A DNA stretch of 34,453 nucleotides, from assembly GCA_009785595.1 (NCBI GenBank), contig WQVZ01000015.1, forward strand, positions 1 through 34,453, given 5' to 3'. Made by a program: the position numbers and the translations under genes. This DNA comes from Defluviitaleaceae bacterium. Lineage in GTDB: Bacteria; Bacillota; Clostridia; Lachnospirales; WRAX01. The notes under the pieces were generated by a model. That model was not told the origin of the DNA. It ran no database searches and saw nothing but the letters and a program-made list of their open reading frames with translations. This document shows, in pieces, positions 8,681 through 34,453 of the stretch. Position 1 is the first letter of the stretch, and the number at the start of each line of letters is the position of its first letter.

Positions 8681-8729
8681 ATTAGACCTCTTGCGAAATT
8701 GTGTGAGTTATTTTCGCAACAGGTCTAAT
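8681..8729. repeat. Inverted repeat H2 (ATTAGACCTCTTGCGAAA ... TTTCGCAACAGGTCTAAT)
   Basis: 18-bp arms with one mismatch, 13-nt loop; immediately 5' of the 7880..8653 gene. Confidence 0.85.
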
Positions 8730-8759
8730 GCCTTTGATATATTCTATGCCGAGCCCGAG

Positions 8760-8980: not shown

Positions 8981-9009
8981 TTGACAATGTCTTGTCATTC
9001 TGATATAAT
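8981..9009 (+). promoter_or_regulatory. Consensus sigma-A promoter for the SLH surface protein
   Basis: TTGACA - 17 nt - TATAAT, exact consensus in both hexamers. Confidence 0.85.
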
Positions 9010-9285
9010 TTCATTTAACGGGCTGTAGTGTCGGCAATATATGGTGCAAACCTTACATTGTCATATTAGGCCCCTTTCAATTTATCAGGGCATAGTTTTA
9101 TGCCAACAAAATACATATTCGCATCAAGAACCTATTTTTTGCGCCATGTACTTTTGCTTTGTGAAAGTGGCACACTGCAAAAGCAGCACATTATAACCGC
9201 GATAAATCGGACCGAGGTGTGATTTTGTATTTTGTGGCAAAAAACATGCCCAAATATTCTGCAAAAAAGAGGAGGGTAACTATTT

Positions 9286-12200
9286 ATGCGTATTACACGC
9301 AAAACAAAAGCGGCCAAAAGGCCGCTACTTAGACGACGTTTGGTGGCACTTTTTGTCATGATGACAATGTTAATGTCCTATGCAACCACTGTGTTTGCGG
9401 CCATGGACAACAGTGCTGGCCCAGATGGCGAACCGGAACTGGGCATTGTGGTGATTTTTAACCCCAATGGCGGCCAAACGATATATGGCCATGAAACGCG
9501 CACCACACGAACCGGCGACGCCAACAGCGGAACAATTGGTGCAGGCTATATGCCGGAGCCCCCAACACATCCCGGAGTTTACAGATTTGTCGGCTGGACC
9601 ATGGTGCAGAACAGCATTGCCACTGCCGACAGGTTTACCGGTTCTACCGTGGTTAACGCACCAGGTATCACCGTATTTGCCTTATGGGGTCATCAGGTGA
9701 CATTCCATGGCGGCGGCGGCGCGCTTAACATCATCAACAGCCCCGGTTCTTTGGTGGGTTGTCATGGGCCGCGTCTTATAGTATCTGGGCAGTCCATAGG
9801 CTCAACCCCCGGCGTATTTGTACCCAATGCACCAAACCATCCCGGTCACACTTTTGCAGGCTGGTTTATAGACAATGACCCTGCACGGCCATTTACAGCT
9901 GCCACAGTTGTTAACGGCGATTTGGAAGTACATGCCCGCTGGGAAGAGATACCAAGACATACAGTGACCTTTGACGTACAAGGAGGCCAACTGTCAACAG
10001 AATTGGCGCCTCCCGCACCTGCTACGGTGAGGCATCCGCACTCTCTTACCCGTACGGCCGTACAAGGCAGAAGCGTTGAGCATTCGTCCAGAAATCCATA
10101 TTTCCTTAACCAGGGTATTGGCTGGCCGCGCTCCGCACCGGAAGTACTACCCGCCGGCCCAACCGCCGGTATGACGCTGGAAGGCTGGTGGACACAGCCA
10201 AATGGCTGGAATGGCACAGGAGATCGCTGGGCGCCCGCTGGTGTGCTTAATCTTGCAAACGAATCTGTGCTGCCACAGCCCGGTGGCGCAGCAACCACCG
10301 TGGTTACAGAGGATATTACCGTTTTTGCCAATTGGGTGTATCGTGTTACATTCCATCCAAACGTTGGTTATATGAATCTTGGCCATGCCAATTCCCTATA
10401 CGATGCGGGCTTTCCAAATCCCCGTGTTGCCGATGTCAATCGCAACCACTTCCGCGACCTAACAGTACAGGGCGGCACCATTAACGCCAATGGTCAGTTG
10501 TATAACCGTAATTCCAACACCGCGCAGCCTGTGGGCATGCCCGCCGATAATATTATGATAAGGCCCGGCTTTATATTTATGGGCTGGTGGAATATGCAAC
10601 TGAACCCAAGCGTAGCCATGGGCAACGAACCGCCGGAAGCCCAGGAATTTTTAGGCACCACCCCTGTAAATACCAGCAAAACGGTGTATGCCCGCTGGAT
10701 ACCCCGCACCCATGTAACAATTACCTTTGATACCAACAACGGGCAATGGGTGGCAGACGACACAGACGACCGCTATGTAAACCTGCCGTCAGGTGCATAT
10801 ATTAACAACTACGGCCCTGCATCCATGCCGGCAATGCCGTTGGTGCCGCCGGCTCCGGGTTATATGTTTGCCGGATGGTTTGTATGTCCCGATGGTACCG
10901 GCGACCGTTTTACCCCGTCAACACAGGTTCCCGATGACATAACCGTATACGCCCGCTGGCTGCCGTATATCACCCTGGCGGTGTGTACCAACGGCGGAAC
11001 ATCAAATCTTATACGCTATCGTAACTTCCCCGTGGGTGTTACTTTGTATGATATGAATCTTATATGGCGCGACCATCACGGCCCGCCAACAACCACCGGA
11101 GCCCAATTAAACCTGTACGATCTCGTATGGATGGGCAATAGCGGCGTTACCACTAGGCCAGGACATCACTTAAACGCGCCACAAGTATGGAACACCGCAG
11201 CCGATGGCAATGGTGACTTGTTTACCAGATTGATGCCCATCACACAAGATATGGCCGTAAACGGCGTGTTTACCATTTATGCCCAATGGGCCATAACCGT
11301 AATATTTAACGACAACCGCAGCAGCATTGGGGCGGGCACCAATGAAGATGACAATATTTTAGGCAGAAACGCCGCAGGTGTAAATACCGCTGCTCATCGC
11401 ACCCAGGTTTTGCTTGGCAGATCATTTGAAAACAACCACCTGCACCCCAATACGCACCCAAGCACGCACCCGGCTTCGCCTAATTTCCCAATGATAGGCA
11501 GAATGGTAAGCCCGCAGGACACCATACTTGACCTAACCTTTTCCAGTGCCAGCATTAACACATTTGTGCGCGGCTGGAACACCCAACCCGACGGACTTGG
11601 CGAATGGTTCTATCACGACACCATTATAACCTCCGGGCCTCTCACTCTTTATGGTATATGGTCAGAAACCCTGGCCTTCCACCCGGGTGTGGCACCACCA
11701 TCCGCCATACCATACGGTCACAGATTATCACCCATAACCCCATTTACCCCCGGCCCTCTTGCCGAAGGCCATTTTGCAAATGTGGATGAAAGATTTGGCG
11801 GCACAGATCCACAATGGCCAGGGTTTACCTTTGTCGGGTGGAGTGATCAACTTAACGGCGGCGTAGGCAGCCAAGATATAATTCCGGGTATGCCCAGAAC
11901 CTTCCCATTCACCATATACGCCCAATGGCATGCGCTTTTATGGTTTGACGCTACCGGCGGAATGATAACACCGGATGTGGGGCCTGCTGTTCCAGAAATG
12001 CTGTCAAGTGCCAGGGTTTTTGTTCCTCTTGCCGGTGCAATTGTTAACACCCCGGCACGCCAAAACTGGCAATTTGCGGAATGGAACACCAACAGGTGGG
12101 GCCTGAGAGACGACGACGGCCTTGTGTACAATACCGGCACCGTTGTCACCGTTACCCGCGACAACAGAGATGCACCAATAAACGGCGAAAGGTTGTTTGC

Positions 12201-16281: not shown

Positions 16282-17215
16282 TCAGACTTCGCTATTATCA
16301 CCTTGCCGCTCTCCGAAATAATCACTTGCAATTTCTTTTGCATCAGGGACATTAGGAAAACACACATTTACAGTTTCATAAATGTGCTTACAGATAACAT
16401 CTATCCACTTTCTTAGAGCATGCGTTTTAAAAGCCACTTCAGTATCAACAAAAGTTGCAAAAAACGCAGCAGTGACTTGAAAAAAGGAATGTGCTGCATG
16501 TTCTGCGGGACTATGCAATCCCCACTCAGAGCGCCCAGCAGATATGATGTTTTGCTCCGTTCCTGAGTTCGCCAGTCTTTTCAATGTTCCTTGCGGTGAC
16601 GCATGAACAACTTTGCACGAAAACCTGTATTGTTTTTGCCAAAATTCTTTTTGGCCTTCCGGAAAATTGATGGATTTGAATATTTTTGTAAATGTTACGT
16701 CATCATTTCTGTTTTTGAAACAAGTTGCACCTTTAGCCCACTCTACACCTGTTTGAAATTCCCACACATTATCATCGGATTGATTAATAAATGCTAATGC
16801 AACATCATCGTCATTTTCTTTAATAAAAATTGCGAAGACGCTCAGCTCGAACAGAGTGCGCCAACGTGCAAATGCTCCATCAGCATAGCCATTTTTTAGC
16901 AAACAGATTATTTCTGAAAAAAACTTGGCAAGCTCGCCCATGTATGCTTTGCAATGCAAATTGTTTAAAGCCAAGACTTTTGCCCTCATTGTGTTCTTTA
17001 TAATACTTGTCTTTAAAGCCATCAACACATTCAATCGTCATTAAGTACATGGAATCAAGAGCGGCAAACCCTCTCCACCATTTTTGCCTTAATCGCCCTA
17101 GGAATTCATAATCAAGATTATTTTGAAACAAAATTCGCTCATACATTATTTCTTCCATCAATGCTACGTTCTTGCTTGTCAATTCATCAAAAAGCTGTCT
17201 TTGTTCATCAATCAT
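16282..17215 (-). pseudogene. DUF5677-like protein split across two frames (frameshift)
   Basis: ORF 16880..17215 (MIDEQRQLFDELTSKN...FKDKYYKEHNE) supplies the N-terminal part; ORF 16282..17034 (...MGELAKFFSEIICLLKNGYADGAFARWRTLFELSVFAIFI...) supplies the rest; overlapping frames offset by one nucleotide. Confidence 0.6.
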
Positions 17216-17370
17216 CGTCTATTGCCCCCATTCTGGTACCTCTCCATCAATGCCGTCACACAATGAACCATGTCAATTGTGCTATTATGCAGCAATCTGT
17301 TTGTTTGCACCATCCTCCACTTCCCACAAATAATTATACAAAAGCCCAGCCCAAATTTCAACCCGGACAT

Positions 17371-25231: not shown

Positions 25232-25272
25232 ACAATCACACCCCTTGCAGGCGGCACTGTGCCGGTTTGTTG

Positions 25273-25299
25273 TTAGCACTCGTACCAAGTGAGTGCTAA
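25273..25299 (-). promoter_or_regulatory. CIRCE operator
   Basis: TTAGCACTC-GTACCAAGT-GAGTGCTAA, exact match to the CIRCE consensus (9-N9-9). Confidence 0.98.
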
Positions 25300-25307
25300 C
25301 CGAGAAT

Positions 25308-25336
25308 AATATACCATGGCAGGGATTATTTGTCAA
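25308..25336 (-). promoter_or_regulatory. hrcA operon sigma-A promoter
   Basis: On the minus strand TTGACA (25336-25331), 17-nt spacer, TATATT (25313-25308), with CIRCE just downstream. Confidence 0.85.
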
Positions 25337-25429
25337 GAGTTTTTTTAACAATATTGCCGCGGCATAGACAGCCCATTTGCGGCCCATTTGCGGCCCATTT
25401 TTTGGTTGCTTTTTATTATTTATTTTCTG

Positions 25430-25458
25430 TTGACATATCACCAAATAAGGTATATACT
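25430..25458 (+). promoter_or_regulatory. Sigma-A promoter reading away from hrcA into the non-coding region
   Basis: TTGACA - 17 nt - TATACT. Confidence 0.75.
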
Positions 25459-25464
25459 TGAAAA

Positions 25465-25740
25465 TAGTAGCACAATATTACCCATGGATGCGAGCATCTG
25501 CCAAAGCGGATGTGTGTTTTTGTGGTTTAAAGGTGTTGCGCTACAAGGTAGAGGTCTCAGGTGCTTTGGATTAGGAATCCAGCCAGCCATTGCGGTCTTT
25601 GCCGGTGCCAAAAACTGGTGTTGTTGGGTCGATTGACGACCACATAGTCCGGATTTTGGCGGGTTAAGAAAGCCGGATATCGGCACCTTTGCTGTGGATT
25701 ACATAAAGGCTTTTGTGCAGTTGGCGGTCTGATTTTTTTG
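25465..25740 (+). ncRNA. Candidate structured non-coding RNA of unidentified class
   Basis: Downstream of the 25430 promoter; no convincing ORF; nested stems: AAAGGTGTTG/CGGCACCTTT long-range (10 bp with G-U), CATCTGC/GCGGATG, CTAC-AAG-GTAG, TGGATT-AGG-AATCCA, GGTCG-ATTGA-CGACC; T7 run near 25732. 3' end uncertain. Confidence 0.5.
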
Positions 25741-25892
25741 ACGCAGGGCAGGCATAATTATGGTTTATTACAGCCAGATTGTGGTTAAATGCTGTGTGTT
25801 TATAGAAAAAGGTTGTTAATTGCGATGTAATGTGCGGGCAAAAATGAAAAATCATATCGACAGGACGGCGGAGCACCGTTAAAATTTTTCGC

Positions 25893-25982
25893 CGGGTTGC
25901 CTTGTAAAATTAAGGAAGGTTATGCTGCGATCTTTTTACAGATACAGCAAATTATTATCCTAGGGCAACCCGTGGTAAATTG
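25893..25982 (+). ncRNA. Second candidate RNA structure in the same intergenic region
   Basis: CGGGTTGCC (25893-25901) pairs perfectly with GGCAACCCG (25974-25982), enclosing TGCTG..ATC-loop-GAT..CAGCA. Confidence 0.4.
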
Positions 25983-26116
25983 AGATGGTATGTGCTGGTA
26001 TTGTTATATCATGATTTTTTGTTAAAAAATTATCCATACCCTTGGCGCGAAATTTGCGGCGGCATCGCCGGGTTTTTGCAAGCTTCGTTTGGGTTACGTT
26101 CTTTGACAACAGACTG

Positions 26117-26334
26117 GTAACGAAACAATGTCGATACAACTTCTCTTAGCCCTGCGGTTTGCTTGCGGCAAGCCCTTGTGCTCGACAGAGTGTTCGGCTT
26201 TTGCGCAACGAATTTTTGCTAGCAGACAAATTTCAGTGATATTTGCAAAATTTTATTCTGCCTACCCTACCAAGCAAAAATGAAGGATTCAGATTGCGTT
26301 TCACGCAATCATATTGCGCAAATAGTTTCGTTAC
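26117..26334. repeat. 218-bp segment bounded by inverted repeats GTAACGAAAC / GTTTCGTTAC
   Basis: Perfect 10-bp terminal inverted arms; contains GATTGCG-TTTCA-CGCAATC hairpin at 26292-26310. Confidence 0.5.
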
Positions 26335-26357
26335 AGGCTTAGTTGAGGTAGGTTTGT

Positions 26358-26373
26358 TACCAAACGTTTGGTA
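26358..26373. promoter_or_regulatory. 16-nt perfect palindrome TACCAAACGTTTGGTA
   Basis: Loop-less DNA palindrome, extended by GTTTG/CAAAC flanks; operator-like, upstream of the giant surface gene. Confidence 0.5.
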
Positions 26374-26755
26374 CAAACACACCCCGACAAAGCAATAGAT
26401 TTGGTATTTTATAGCCGGTTTTTTTTCAAAGATGCCCGGTTGTAAAATACAAAAAAGAGCAGGATAAAAAGACTTCCGATATCCTTAGGCCTGTCCGTAA
26501 ACCCGTTTTACACAGTACAGTTTACGAGCAGACCTCATGCAAGACAGCAACATGCAGTTTGCACCACAAGCTTGATGCCCATTTGCATTCAAGACAATAT
26601 TTAAATGAAAGAGAAACACACAACAAAGTCCTTGTGTTGCTTTTATGCAATATAAACGCCATTGATAGGCGAATATTGAAAAACTGCACAGGGCGAAAAA
26701 TAGCACCAAATGTAAGTTAAAAATACGGAACGTAGAAAGGAGGCTGTTTCTGATA

Positions 26756-29700
26756 GTGGGACATATCACTAAGAAGCAGTTTGCGAGAGTTGTCAGCGTG
26801 CTTTTGGCAATGCTGATGATCTTCGGTAGCGTTCCGGTGGACCTGTACGCAGGGACTATTGGAAGCGTTATTGAAGATTCTGCGCCAGAGTATGAGGATA
26901 CATACGCCGCTGACCTTGTGCATTACGAGGAAGAGACGGAGTATGACCCTTATGCTGACGCAGTATATTATGAATATGAGTATGACTACGATGAGAGCAT
27001 AATCCAGTGGCATTCTTTTAGCGGCTATGTTATGTCGGAAGACTATGACACGCCATTGTATGGTGCTGCCGTTTCTCTTTACTTTGAAGGCCACTTGCAC
27101 GCACGTGTATTTACGGATTATCAAGGCCGTTTTTATTTAGAGGCCAGACCGTTTAATCTTGATAATTTAGACGGATGGGCTTTGACGGCTGGTTATGAAG
27201 GATTTTATGCAGAATATGCTTGGTTGGAAGAATATATTGACGAAGTATTTGCAATTGCGGACGGAATCATCCCTGTAACCATCAATTTCTATCTGGAGGA
27301 GATTGTCGAAGTTGATTGGGACGGTTCTCTTGTTATAAGCGGTATTGTTGCTTCTTATGAAAGCACATTGCCCATTGCAGGCGCGAATGTACGTCTTTTA
27401 GGTTCTGAGGGCGAAGTTTTTACCGCCCAAACCGATGCATATGGCGTGTATGAGATATTTATCGTATCAGATGACGCATATGACCCTATTGATCTTGGCT
27501 CATTGTTGTTAGGCGCCACAATCATGGCATCTCATGCTGGTTATCGTACACAAATCGTTGATATGGACGATTATATCGGATATATTGACGCATATGGCGG
27601 TCTTGCCGTTAATTTTGAGCTTGTGCCGGCCCCGTATATACCGGCGGGCATGGCTTTGGCCCACGGCACCGTAACATTGGGATACGGCGAAATTGTTGAG
27701 GGCGCGCGAGTTGTGTTTATGCCCAACGACATATTTGCCGACGAAGATGATTTTATCATCGCATACACAGATGCAGACGGCAGATACAGCATACTTTTAC
27801 CGGCATCAGAGGCCGAGGAGTTTGCTGCATGGGCTACATATTATATTGAAGAAACAACCGCTGTACTTGACGCTTTTGGCAATATGCTGTTTGATGAATA
27901 CGGCGAAATAATAACAGAAACCACAACATTGTTTGCTACAAGCGGCATGGTGGAGCTTGTTATTGCCGCCGGTGAAGCTGCGGAGCTTGATTTTGAACTT
28001 GAATGGGTTCACGCAAGAGCCACATCGACACCTATAGGCATATATACCTGGGCTGACCTTAATGCATTCTTTAGCGGTTTTATGGGCACCAATTTTGATA
28101 ATTTTTATCTTGGTGACAACATCACTGTGCCAGCGGGCAATGCACGCAGCGGACGTGGTTATGTTGGCGGCTTTCCGTTTTTGGGTACCTTTGACGGTCG
28201 CGGCCATTCTATAACCGACCTTCGCCTTAGACCATTAACCGCCGACGAACGCACAGCAGCTCTTACCATGGGCGGATTTGATGTCAATGATTTTGGCTTT
28301 ATCCGCGTATTAGGTGACGGCGCAGTTATCGAAAATATTAACTTTGTTAATGCGCATTACACTGAGGCCGCAGGTTTTGCCGCCTGGAACACCGCAACGG
28401 GCAATATTGGTCTTGTTGCAGGTCGTGTTGCTCCGGGGGCCACTGCCACCATCCGTAATGTTGACGTAATAACCACCGGCACCGCAGAAGGTACAAGATC
28501 CCAGATAAGCATAACCGGCACACGCACCGTAACCAATAAGAGAATTGGCGGCGTGGTTGGTCATACCGGTCTCGGTTCTGTACTTAATATCATTAATACC
28601 AATGTTAACTATACCTTAAACTTTGCTTCCACCGGGCCTATTCCGTCCGTAGGCGGCATGATTGGTTTTGCCAGCGGTGTTGTTAACATAAGCAGCGGCA
28701 GCAACGACCCTGCTGTGCGCAATACAGTTGTTATGGCCCAATTGGGCGGTGCCGTGCGCCAAAATATTGGCGGTGTTATCGGTGTTGCCACAGGGGCGCT
28801 TGATATCCGCAACCTTAACGTATCCGGTGCCATCACGGGCGCTCTTAACGCGGGCGGCGTGGTTGGCAACAGCTTGTTTGCGGGTGCGGGATCTGTGCAT
28901 ATCACTAATGTGGACAGAGTAGCCGGAAATATAACCGGCGGCGGCGGCGACGCTACCGGCGTTGGTGGTATATTTGGTAATGTGGCGGCAGCTGTCATTA
29001 CAAACAGCCATCGTTTGGCTGGTATAGCCGCATCCCCCAACAATTTGGGCGGTTTGGTAGGTCGTGCAATCGGCACTGTAGAGATTCATAATTCTCACAA
29101 CCACGGCACGTTTAGCAATACCGGCGCAAACCAGCCTCGCGGCGTTGGCGGTATTGTCGGACGCGTTACCGCAACAGGTAATGTCACCATAAACGGCTCA
29201 ATAAACCATTCGTCTATAAACACCGCATTTAACGCCGGTAATTACGGCGGTATTGTGGGCAGAACCCAAGGACGTCTTACCATACACAATGCACAAAACC
29301 TTGCCGCGTACATAAGAGGTAACAACGACGGCGGCACAGGCACTGCTCTTCGTTTCGGCGCAGGCGGTATCGTGGGACGCGCAAACAACTCTGTTATCCG
29401 CATATACGACACCACCAACAATGCCAGAATCGATGGTCGTCCACGTGATGGCGGTATCGGCGGCATTATTGGTTTTGCCGATGGCGGCGGCTCCACCACC
29501 CTTACCCGCGTAACAAACACCGGCGTAGTGCACGCGCAAGAGCGTATGCGCCATCGTGCGGGCGGCTTGGCGGGCTGGATGCGCAACCCCATAACCATTG
29601 AGGGTAGCACAAACACCGGTAATCTTACCAATGCACAGGGCACCGGTACAGGCAGAAACCAGCAATTTGGCGGCCTTATAGCACGTGCTGACCACAACAC

Positions 29701-32700: not shown

Positions 32701-34453
32701 GCTGACATTTGTAGGCGAAGGTATGCACAGAAATATCTATCTTGATCCAGGCACAACCAACCAGCATTTGCTGTATGTTCGTGTTATGGACAGAGCAACC
32801 CCGGCAAATCCCATAGTTGCCAGCAGCGTGCTTTACGGAATCCTTGGACTGGAACCCGTAAACCTTGATGAAGGCTTGTGGTCTGTAAACCTTAACAGCC
32901 GTGCTGCCGGACTTATAACAGCATCTGCAACAGGATTTGTCACCGGCACAACCCTTGCATCGGAACATGATGAAGGTTGGCCAAATCACGTATTTGCGGT
33001 TATATCCCTAGCCAGAGTTGTACCGGACTTTAGAGTGTATGTGGTGGATGACCAAGGCGTCCCATTGTCTACGGCAGAATTGACGATGACAACGGAAACC
33101 GTCACAGATTTACCCATAACACGCGACCCGGCACCACCATTCGGCAGATTTACAGTGACTACCGACGAAACTGCGGTATTTACAGCAAGCGCGCCGGGCT
33201 TTGGGCCGATAACCGAAGCAATAACCAATGCCCACATTGCTGCGGGATTCATGACAATCCAGCTTACGCAACGTGTGCCCGTCCCAATGACGGTAAGAGT
33301 TGTTTATGATTCTACAGGCGAACCCATTCCACACGCTACCTTGCAACGGAGACCTCACGGCTCTACCGTTCACAGCGATGTGTTGGGCAATGACACAGGC
33401 GTGTTTACTGTAAATCTGACAGTAGGCGACAGACTGGTAGGTGGCGCAACAGGCTTAAATCCTGTGCCACACGACCCTGTTACGTCGGCAGACCTGGCAG
33501 CAGGAGTAATCACCATTCGCCTTACCGAACGTGTACCTTTTGATAACTTTATTGTAAGAGTGATAGACCCTAACGGAGATCTTATTCCCCATGCGCAGCT
33601 AAGCGCATCCCGTAACAGCGTTACCCCTGTACCCGGCATGACCATAACCCCGGGCACCGGCACTAACGCAGGTAGATTTGTCGCAGATGGCGTAGAGCTT
33701 GGCGATACATTTAACGCAACGGCAGTGGGATTTGACCCGAACACAGGTGCTGTTACCATTGAAAACTTTAACCCCACAACCGGCGCGGGCACCCTAAACA
33801 TAACCCTGCAACCGGTAGTTGATCCGATAGAAGTAACAGTAGAAGTGCGCGCCCTAAACGGCGGCGGCATTATTACAACTGCAAGCCTTACCCACAATGG
33901 CCAGCCGGTCTTAACCGGAGCCAATGGGGTGTTCACTCTTGAACTTACAGGCGCAAATGTAATGCCTCCTCCTGATGTTCTTGTTGCAAGTGCTCTGGGC
34001 TTTGACACTTCCGCCGAGCGTGCCATAGTATACACCGACCTTGTCAGTCAACTCATCGTTATCTATCTTGATGCCGGCATCGACACGCCTCCGGTAACAG
34101 TAACCGTAGAAGTGCGCGAAGGCACGGCAACGGGACCATTGATCACTTCCGCGCAGCTTTTGCACGGAAATGTCCAGGTGCCTGGCAATGACACAGGCGT
34201 ATTCACCCTCCAGCTTACCGGAGCAAACATTGGCAACAGGCTTAACGCATCCGCATCCGGCTTTGGTGGCAACCACCACTATATAGTCGATGGCGATATC
34301 GTTAATGGCCACACCATTGTAATTGTTCTTCAGCGCGGTGACTACACCCTCACCATCACCAACACCCCCGCCACTCTCACCCACAACAACCAAATCCTTA
34401 CCGCCGGTACGGACACCTTGGTTGTCGGCAGTGCCAATGCCGTGCAGTTTGGC
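26756..34453 (+). CDS. Giant secreted surface protein, GLUG-like repeat and carboxypeptidase-regulatory-like domains, 3'-truncated by window end
   Basis: GTG start at 26756 with AAAGGAGG upstream; signal peptide 'MGHITKKQFARVVSVLLAMLMIFGSVPVDLYAGT'; frame read open for 2566 codons to nt 34453 (7698 nt, divisible by 3). Not in the ORF track because it has no stop in the window. Confidence 0.93.
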   Translation, partial: MGHITKKQFARVVSVLLAMLMIFGSVPVDLYAGTIGSVIEDSAPEYEDTYAADLVHYEEETEYDPYADAVYYEYEYDYDESIIQWHSFSGYVMSEDYDTPLYGAAVSLYFEGHLHARVFTDYQGRFYLEARPFNLDNLDGWALTAGYEGFYAEYAWLEEYIDEVFAIADGIIPVTINFYLEEIVEVDWDGSLVISGIVASYESTLPIAGANVRLLGSEGEVFTAQTDAYGVYEIFIVSDDAYDPIDLGSLLLGATIMASHAGYRTQIVDMDDYIGYIDAYGGLAVNFELVPAPYIPAGMALAHGTVTLGYGEIVEGARVVFMPNDIFADEDDFIIAYTDADGRYSILLPASEAEEFAAWATYYIEETTAVLDAFGNMLFDEYGEIITETTTLFATSGMVELVIAAGEAAELDFELEWVHARATSTPIGIYTWADLNAFFSGFMGTNFDNFYLGDNITVPAGNARSGRGYVGGFPFLGTFDGRGHSITDLRLRPLTADERTAALTMGGFDVNDFGFIRVLGDGAVIENINFVNAHYTEAAGFAAWNTATGNIGLVAGRVAPGATATIRNVDVITTGTAEGTRSQISITGTRTVTNKRIGGVVGHTGLGSVLNIINTNVNYTLNFASTGPIPSVGGMIGFASGVVNISSGSNDPAVRNTVVMAQLGGAVRQNIGGVIGVATGALDIRNLNVSGAITGALNAGGVVGNSLFAGAGSVHITNVDRVAGNITGGGGDATGVGGIFGNVAAAVITNSHRLAGIAASPNNLGGLVGRAIGTVEIHNSHNHGTFSNTGANQPRGVGGIVGRVTATGNVTINGSINHSSINTAFNAGNYGGIVGRTQGRLTIHNAQNLAAYIRGNNDGGTGTALRFGAGGIVGRANNSVIRIYDTTNNARIDGRPRDGGIGGIIGFADGGGSTTLTRVTNTGVVHAQERMRHRAGGLAGWMRNPITIEGSTNTGNLTNAQGTGTGRNQQFGGLIARADHNTVINNSQNYGDIITDTGRTPRGLGGLIGEHRGRLTITNSYNRGDLGSTITSGQATNTPIGWGGIVGRSDMGGTGAANRVVTMTNVTNFGRVGAATGNVPRNVGGIIGRTVNRTRANYTLNNVVNHGAIRGNTTVGGIIGLNDTPNVTINNSANHGTVSSAVVASSLGGIVARSTRANLIIRNTFNTGSVTPGGTGNAALGQAYGGLVGMITAGVVIIERSFNAGSITGTNQNTGGIVGRSNGRRQLTIRDVYNIGTVTMPRGTSATNLRSGNGILGHRGGGPVRMYNVFNAGRTQGRPIYGQATIAPGANGGNIGTYMRFENVFFDTTVHTGIMQRQHLRGTLQGVPTDLLTRGILPGIDGLNWLSGTAPLTEGETVLNTYPYLYWQTNAPGTPIGNRVLETRFVFAITDINNNAVMDLPGAGSRTTYFAMIPDRLEGSRFFLPYAGAAQHMTPIPTAHATVTFTRTGPMSLGAISDNWVVGFDDSDRSAVAIRAVDEINNVPITHARFTVNGVPVAATETFGGIILIEIDDIGAVPQFLGITAFGYHPIENRLLTMEEIVTPALLIEIPMQRAPIDNIRVVLRDDYPDAPVNNRVLASTAATAGQNSRLRHDRTTPAYPNYVPVQGGNTANRHFFLPTVYLFDTMQPAADWFLYRPDGTFVLTYQDFLRNAAGTELTGSGTAADPWVVNIYLEDVGVDRRVLRVIEIQPVDDAEGYAIVTIPHGGGTHVQVETRNPEGFAGPAPVVATVGTANLWNIDFGTVDTQVRVHAAGYRSSEWLYIEDQLDVNEETGVVANTFPVVLDREIRFTIQVYEDFVLERDEYGQPTNTYRRPIPGATLFLAEDWLGGLYQAIAPTGPGLFTNVRAIEGEEIIVSVSGFASEHHTVDWLADVVEGAETHPDRPTGQPAPGFTTTSPRDAWSSFNIVLEREAGNYLTGFVRSTAAGNPVIPYAQVTLITVGGYARTTQASAGGFFEFANLPSGDFALYASHPQFQTNVPIPLTFVGEGMHRNIYLDPGTTNQHLLYVRVMDRATPANPIVASSVLYGILGLEPVNLDEGLWSVNLNSRAAGLITASATGFVTGTTLASEHDEGWPNHVFAVISLARVVPDFRVYVVDDQGVPLSTAELTMTTETVTDLPITRDPAPPFGRFTVTTDETAVFTASAPGFGPITEAITNAHIAAGFMTIQLTQRVPVPMTVRVVYDSTGEPIPHATLQRRPHGSTVHSDVLGNDTGVFTVNLTVGDRLVGGATGLNPVPHDPVTSADLAAGVITIRLTERVPFDNFIVRVIDPNGDLIPHAQLSASRNSVTPVPGMTITPGTGTNAGRFVADGVELGDTFNATAVGFDPNTGAVTIENFNPTTGAGTLNITLQPVVDPIEVTVEVRALNGGGIITTASLTHNGQPVLTGANGVFTLELTGANVMPPPDVLVASALGFDTSAERAIVYTDLVSQLIVIYLDAGIDTPPVTVTVEVREGTATGPLITSAQLLHGNVQVPGNDTGVFTLQLTGANIGNRLNASASGFGGNHHYIVDGDIVNGHTIVIVLQRGDYTLTITNTPATLTHNNQILTAGTDTLVVGSANAVQFG
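28550..30540 (+). repeat. About 20 GLUG-like 'GG(I/V/L)(V/I)GR' coding repeats
   Basis: Motifs such as GGVVGHT, GGMIGFA, GGIVGRV, GGIVGRT, GGIVGRA, GGIIGFA, GGLIGEH, GGIVGRS, GGIIGRT, GGLVGMI spaced about 33 aa apart on average. Confidence 0.8.

Follow-up and report, generated by a model that had tools for sequence, protein, structure and literature searches.

A strand-specifically folded, untranslated stretch behind an orphan promoter divergent from hrcA: a possible leader of a giant adhesin gene

A near-consensus promoter that points away from the heat-shock regulator gene hrcA, into DNA with no credible gene before 26755, raises the question of what it transcribes. The window analyzed here (the whole stretch of 34,453 nucleotides) is contig C15 of a 1.7-Mb draft genome from a Clostridia lineage. 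The closest public relatives of its HrcA come from metagenome-assembled genomes (MAGs) labeled Clostridiales and Defluviitaleaceae, from sets that we take to be largely of termite-gut origin. The minus strand carries an operon in the order hrcA-grpE-dnaK-dnaJ, with its own promoter and operator (Table 1). Tandem 11-bp units (CCCATTTGCGG; 25362–25405) separate the divergent hrcA and plus-strand promoters and are possibly a regulator site. A sequence-only reading had proposed that the plus-strand promoter drives a structured non-coding RNA occupying 25430–25740.

The promoter and its orientation relative to hrcA are as that reading described them. An equally good plus-strand site arose in one of 500 shuffles of 25232–25500, and the only other plus-strand site of at least 9/12 in 25400–26756 is a 10/12 match at 25857. 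The window holds just five sites of at least 11/12, this one included; the other four lie before the surface-protein gene at 9286 (12/12), before hrcA, just upstream of alaS, and near 17361, where the site precedes a possible gene near 17215. A survey of ~438 kb from this genome put the density of 11/12 sites at 0.36/kb in intergenic and 0.024/kb in coding DNA (~15-fold). Thirty-six sites of at least 11/12 fall outside crudely called genes there, and among those facing more than 500 nt of gene-free DNA are the sites that drive the 6S RNA gene, a tRNA cluster, and tRNA-Trp. Because such sites concentrate in intergenic DNA and orphan sites of the same type serve known RNA genes, the 25430 promoter is very likely real. 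Two further near-consensus promoters (L187:5707 and L185:17661, the latter on the minus strand) face more than 1.2 kb that is gene-free in the crude gene call; neither is followed by a fold signal, so they probably front missed genes. Elsewhere in the window, an SLH-domain surface protein has a perfect 12/12 promoter 270 nt ahead of it (8981–9285), and the leader at 9060–9259 folds strongly on both strands (z of −6.4 on plus and −3.95 on minus).

The predicted transcript folds into a row of hairpins (Table 1). Using shuffles that keep dinucleotide composition, the 276 nt at 25465–25740 (−96.2 kcal/mol) gave z = −2.9, with none of 200 shuffles as good. Longer stretches revealed a strong strand bias: the first 380 nt gave z = −4.25 in sense versus −0.63 in antisense, 25465–25860 gave −4.18 on plus and −0.98 on minus, and 25465–26078 gave −4.99 and −2.42, respectively. 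Coding controls of 380 nt averaged −0.28 (SD 0.97). Most folds of progressively longer transcripts retain H1, H2, and H3, and a hairpin at 25691–25728, preceding a T7 run, gives way to H5 when the transcript extends to 25842. H6 folds on both strands and may therefore be a DNA palindrome. The local hairpins named in the sequence-only reading (TGGATT/AATCCA, GGTCG/CGACC, and CATCTGC/GCGGATG) all occur in the predicted fold. The 10-bp pairing said to enclose them (AAAGGTGTTG/CGGCACCTTT) is not supported: it can be written with two G·U pairs, but its ensemble probability is 0, imposing it on the fold costs 10 kcal/mol, and a long-range helix of equal quality appeared in 17 of 100 shuffles. The T7 run said to follow is present at 25732–25738, but it was not flagged by the terminator search and in longer transcripts is buried in the 155-nt hairpin. 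The extent first assigned was also too short, as the strand-specific fold continues to ~25842, a terminator-like hairpin follows at 26057–26075, and non-coding DNA runs to 26755. Collectively, these predictions support a strand-specifically folded stretch behind the 25430 promoter.

Table 1. Positions in the window of features at and around the folded stretch
Feature	Position	Strand	Remarks
CIRCE element TTAGCACTC-N9-GAGTGCTAA	25273..25299	.	Perfect copy; hrcA operator; neighbor, outside the RNA; read directly
hrcA promoter	25336-25308	-	
Near-consensus sigma-A promoter TTGACA-17-TATACT	25430..25458	+	11/12 match; promoter scan and density comparison
Predicted transcription start	25465	+	~7 nt past the -10 hexamer; inferred from promoter
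Hairpin H1 (GUAGC...GCUAC)	25467..25544	+	-30.4 kcal/mol; predicted fold
Hairpin H2	25547..25603	+	-19.2 kcal/mol; predicted fold
Hairpin H3	25607..25660	+	-22.2 kcal/mol; predicted fold
Hairpin H5	25688..25842	+	155 nt; contains T7 run 25732-25738; stretch folded beyond chance on + strand only
24-nt hairpin element resembling one in the C49 leader	25757..25780	+	19/24 identical; five differences, all transitions
Hairpin H6	25843..26023	+	Predicted; folds on both strands
Terminator-like hairpin CGGCG-GCAT-CGCCG, then GGTTTTT	26057..26075	+	Weak; fold z near 0
MITE-like repeat, imperfect inverted ends (GTAACGAAAC/GTTTCGTTAC)	26116..26335	.	Inserted in the non-coding stretch
Shine-Dalgarno sequence AAAGGAGG of the adhesin gene	26736..26743	+	
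Giant surface protein gene, at least 2566 aa	26756..34453	+	Signal-peptide-like start; CarboxypepD_reg repeats; open at contig end

The next gene downstream of the promoter, on the same strand, encodes a giant adhesin, which is easily overlooked because a list of closed open reading frames (ORFs) omits one running off the contig. Two related genes share its architecture: a paralogue on contig C49 that is 46% identical over 514 aa and, from another genus, a homologue in genome G008 (42% over the first 75 residues). In both, a same-strand 11/12 promoter precedes the start codon without any credible gene intervening, at a distance of 814 nt in C49 (TTGACT-16-TATAAT) and of 1083 nt in G008 (TTGACT-17-TATAAT), and the ribosome-binding regions of all three genes are alike. 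For comparison, the median leader length in the same genome is ~37 nt (90th percentile, 360 nt), judged from 57 genes (<2.5 kb, promoter of at least 10/12). In the giant adhesin gene, the GTG start codon lies inside a hairpin (26741–26782; −20.1 kcal/mol) that was equaled in 1 of 200 shuffles. A similar start-codon hairpin, with both partners of one pair altered, is formed by the C49 paralogue (equaled in 10 of 200 shuffles), and in the G008 homologue the hairpin is not formed. A fourth surface-protein-like gene, with ~1.2 kb of non-coding DNA upstream (L149:2277–3454, contig C1), has a leader with no similarity to that in the window.

The leaders themselves were compared by several tests picked after the data had been viewed, each of them weak and all pointing in the same direction. 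Aligned end to end over their first 450 nt, the window and C49 leaders beat 297–299 of 300 doubly shuffled pairs, and later parts aligned no better than shuffles. Overall the similarity is weak, being equaled by 1 to 30 of 300 shuffles according to pair and scoring; ranked by similarity to the window leader among 93 real promoter-downstream sequences, C49 came second and G008 fifth. The best ungapped match between window and C49 is the 24-nt hairpin element, located 292 and 273 nt from the respective predicted starts; when matches are counted only within 60 nt of the diagonal, 2 of 300 shuffles equal it, against 9 of 300 with no such restriction. Four of the five transitions fall in its stem, and none disrupts it. 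When the G008 candidate is added, there is one compensatory pair and some stem pairs are broken, and across these three remote leaders the covariation does not exceed the control (161 of 500 shuffles). A secondary structure shared by the three leaders could not be demonstrated, as the best fold of C49 differs and pair conservation is about that expected from sequence identity.

Our preferred reading, held with about even confidence, is that the adhesin gene has an untranslated leader of ~1.3 kb, of which the stretch forms the part nearest the promoter. It is supported by the same-strand promoter without an intervening gene, by the architecture common to the two relatives, by the likeness of the leaders near their promoters, and by the sense-strand fold. 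Counting against it are the very great length, the terminator-like hairpin and inserted repeat within, the weak leader similarity, the lack of a visibly shared fold, covariation in the 24-nt hairpin that stays within its control, and a single-sequence covariance model that finds nothing in C49. The promoter, the missing credible ORFs, the strand-specific fold, the gene order, and the matching architecture in two related genes were computed; the transcription start, read-through, and a regulatory effect are what we infer. RNA polymerase would start at ~25465, produce the stable run of hairpins H1–H5 (25465–25842), and then pass or halt at the weak terminator-like hairpins at 25691–25738 and 26057–26075. 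Read-through transcripts would carry the adhesin message, with its start codon within a hairpin. Most likely, the folded leader would limit or time adhesin expression after initiation, through early termination, RNA stability, or both; transcripts that end prematurely would resemble a small RNA of ~0.3–0.6 kb.

The alternative that survives best, though a distinctly less probable one, is a free-standing structured RNA gene of ~0.38–0.6 kb (25465 to ~25842 or 26075), unclassed, trans-acting, and independent of the adhesin. It too predicts a transcript from 25465. Here an orphan promoter is a good indication that an RNA gene follows, because others in this genome serve 6S RNA and tRNA genes, and the sense-strand fold is the strongest and most strand-specific among nine orphan promoters examined. 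The terminator-like hairpin at 26057–26075 could provide an end, but as an intrinsic terminator it is weak. The likeness to other leaders is confined to the promoter-proximal part. The insertion of the MITE-like repeat, together with the dissimilarity of the second halves of the leaders, suggests that constraint is confined to the first 0.4–0.6 kb, which is why the stand-alone gene retains the weight we give it. Partial or full copies of the repeat occur on contigs C18, C20, and C3; it measures ~220–250 bp with GACCTGTTCCGAAAC type ends (copies at L150:2071–2300 and, on the minus strand, L151:~1817–2045 and L152:~2020–2077), and a very short hairpin at ~8683–8731 may be of the same type.

The Rfam search proposed with the sequence-only reading gave no match: none of the Rfam 15 covariance models matched the window above the gathering threshold, and at E values up to 10 there were only three chance matches to eukaryotic families, far below threshold. 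The identical search does detect a T-box elsewhere in the genome. ARAGORN found no tRNA or tmRNA in the window, and the only RF00013 (6S RNA) match of the genome is on contig C6 (78.7 bits). Known RNA families were rejected for 25430–25740 on these grounds. BLAST detected no homologue in 391 other genomes of the order, and short DNA matches in two of them (G280 and G156; 33–37 nt) were taken as chance. Covariance models built from the single sequence found no homologue in 294 and 40 other genomes and nothing in C49, searches of phages and plasmids returned no homologue, and two exact 21-mers were not found in viral contigs. An orthologous RNA beside hrcA was rejected, as the family genomes examined have other genes upstream of hrcA (for example alaS in three of the closest) and no covariance-model match was obtained around hrcA at 80 database loci or in 12 genomes of the family. 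Nothing specific was found in the literature on small RNAs linked to hrcA or CIRCE. One match in the same genome (L169:13300–13520; 38.4 bits) was rejected as a palindrome artifact because it consists of near-perfect GC-rich palindromes, has almost no primary-sequence agreement, and was missed by model R1. That locus (L169:13300–13560; contig C1 ~33300–33560) is a series of consecutive long near-perfect GC-rich palindromes between glnS-like and L,D-transpeptidase-like genes. The lack of homologues and the recurrence of the promoter-to-adhesin arrangement in two relatives both argue against a free-standing gene. Of the structured non-coding RNA originally proposed, what stands is a promoter-driven, untranslated stretch with a strand-specific fold outside Rfam; a stand-alone status is less likely, given the same-strand adhesin gene and the long gaps in its relatives.

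It is improbable that the sequence behind a real promoter is an unconstrained leader or spacer, its fold a by-product of G+T-rich composition and palindromic debris. The region is the most G+T-rich of the window, its 140-nt windows taken alone are within background, and no covariation was demonstrated; moreover, the intergenic DNA of this genome is full of palindromes and repeats that fold on both strands, several with lower z-scores. Against this, the signal survives dinucleotide-preserving shuffles (0 of 200; z of about −4.2 for 380–396 nt). The strand bias is its informative part, because the intergenic palindromes fold on both strands whereas this region folds on plus only; of 286 background windows, 2 showed a one-strand signal of similar size, and one of these lies within the same region.

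Finally, it is very improbable that the 50-aa ORF at 25484–25636 is a genuine small protein or leader peptide: it begins 19 nt past the predicted transcription start, but it lacks a Shine-Dalgarno sequence, scores −0.30 per codon like a wrong frame (5th percentile of true-gene pieces, 0.00), and has no match in Pfam, PHROG, or NCBIfam. Its best match elsewhere (E 1.9e-4, in 1 of 146 genomes) spans the end of an opposite-strand ORF and a hairpin downstream and was taken as chance. A small protein was rejected on either strand, in agreement with the original view that no credible ORF is present.

If the leader reading is confirmed, uncultured gut Clostridia would be seen to control their giant surface adhesins via kilobase-long folded leaders, a layer of control missed by ORF-centered annotation and by Rfam, given the minimal sequence conservation. 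A bolder proposal, which we consider doubtful, is that the stretch belongs to a new class of large structured RNAs (~380–600 nt) that evolve rapidly, form the 5′ ends of giant adhesin transcripts in a gut-type Clostridia family, and control them by premature termination or as released RNAs. The combination of a near-consensus orphan promoter with strand-specific folding provides a cheap single-genome test, the orphan-promoter step of which recovers 6S RNA and tRNA genes.

Several known systems offer comparison. T-box and metabolite riboswitch leaders are likewise structured, with a possible terminator, but unlike them this region has no Rfam match. Large ornate RNAs such as ROOL, GOLLD, and OLE (PMC12286853) are also long, elaborately folded, and bacterial; the region differs in having no Rfam match at E values up to 10, no homologues, and no conserved core. 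6S RNA is promoter-driven, hairpin-rich, and ORF-free, and its gene in this genome displays the same orphan-promoter pattern, although 6S RNA forms one long hairpin with a central bulge and the region a row of hairpins. Long structured 5′ leaders of bacterial surface-protein or operon mRNAs are a general kind rather than an Rfam family. Compared with these, 0.8–1.3 kb is unusually long, the sequence is barely conserved between related genes, and it comes without a known ligand, protein, or family; what it shares with them is a distant strong promoter with no ORF between, stable and terminator-like hairpins, and a start codon set within a hairpin.
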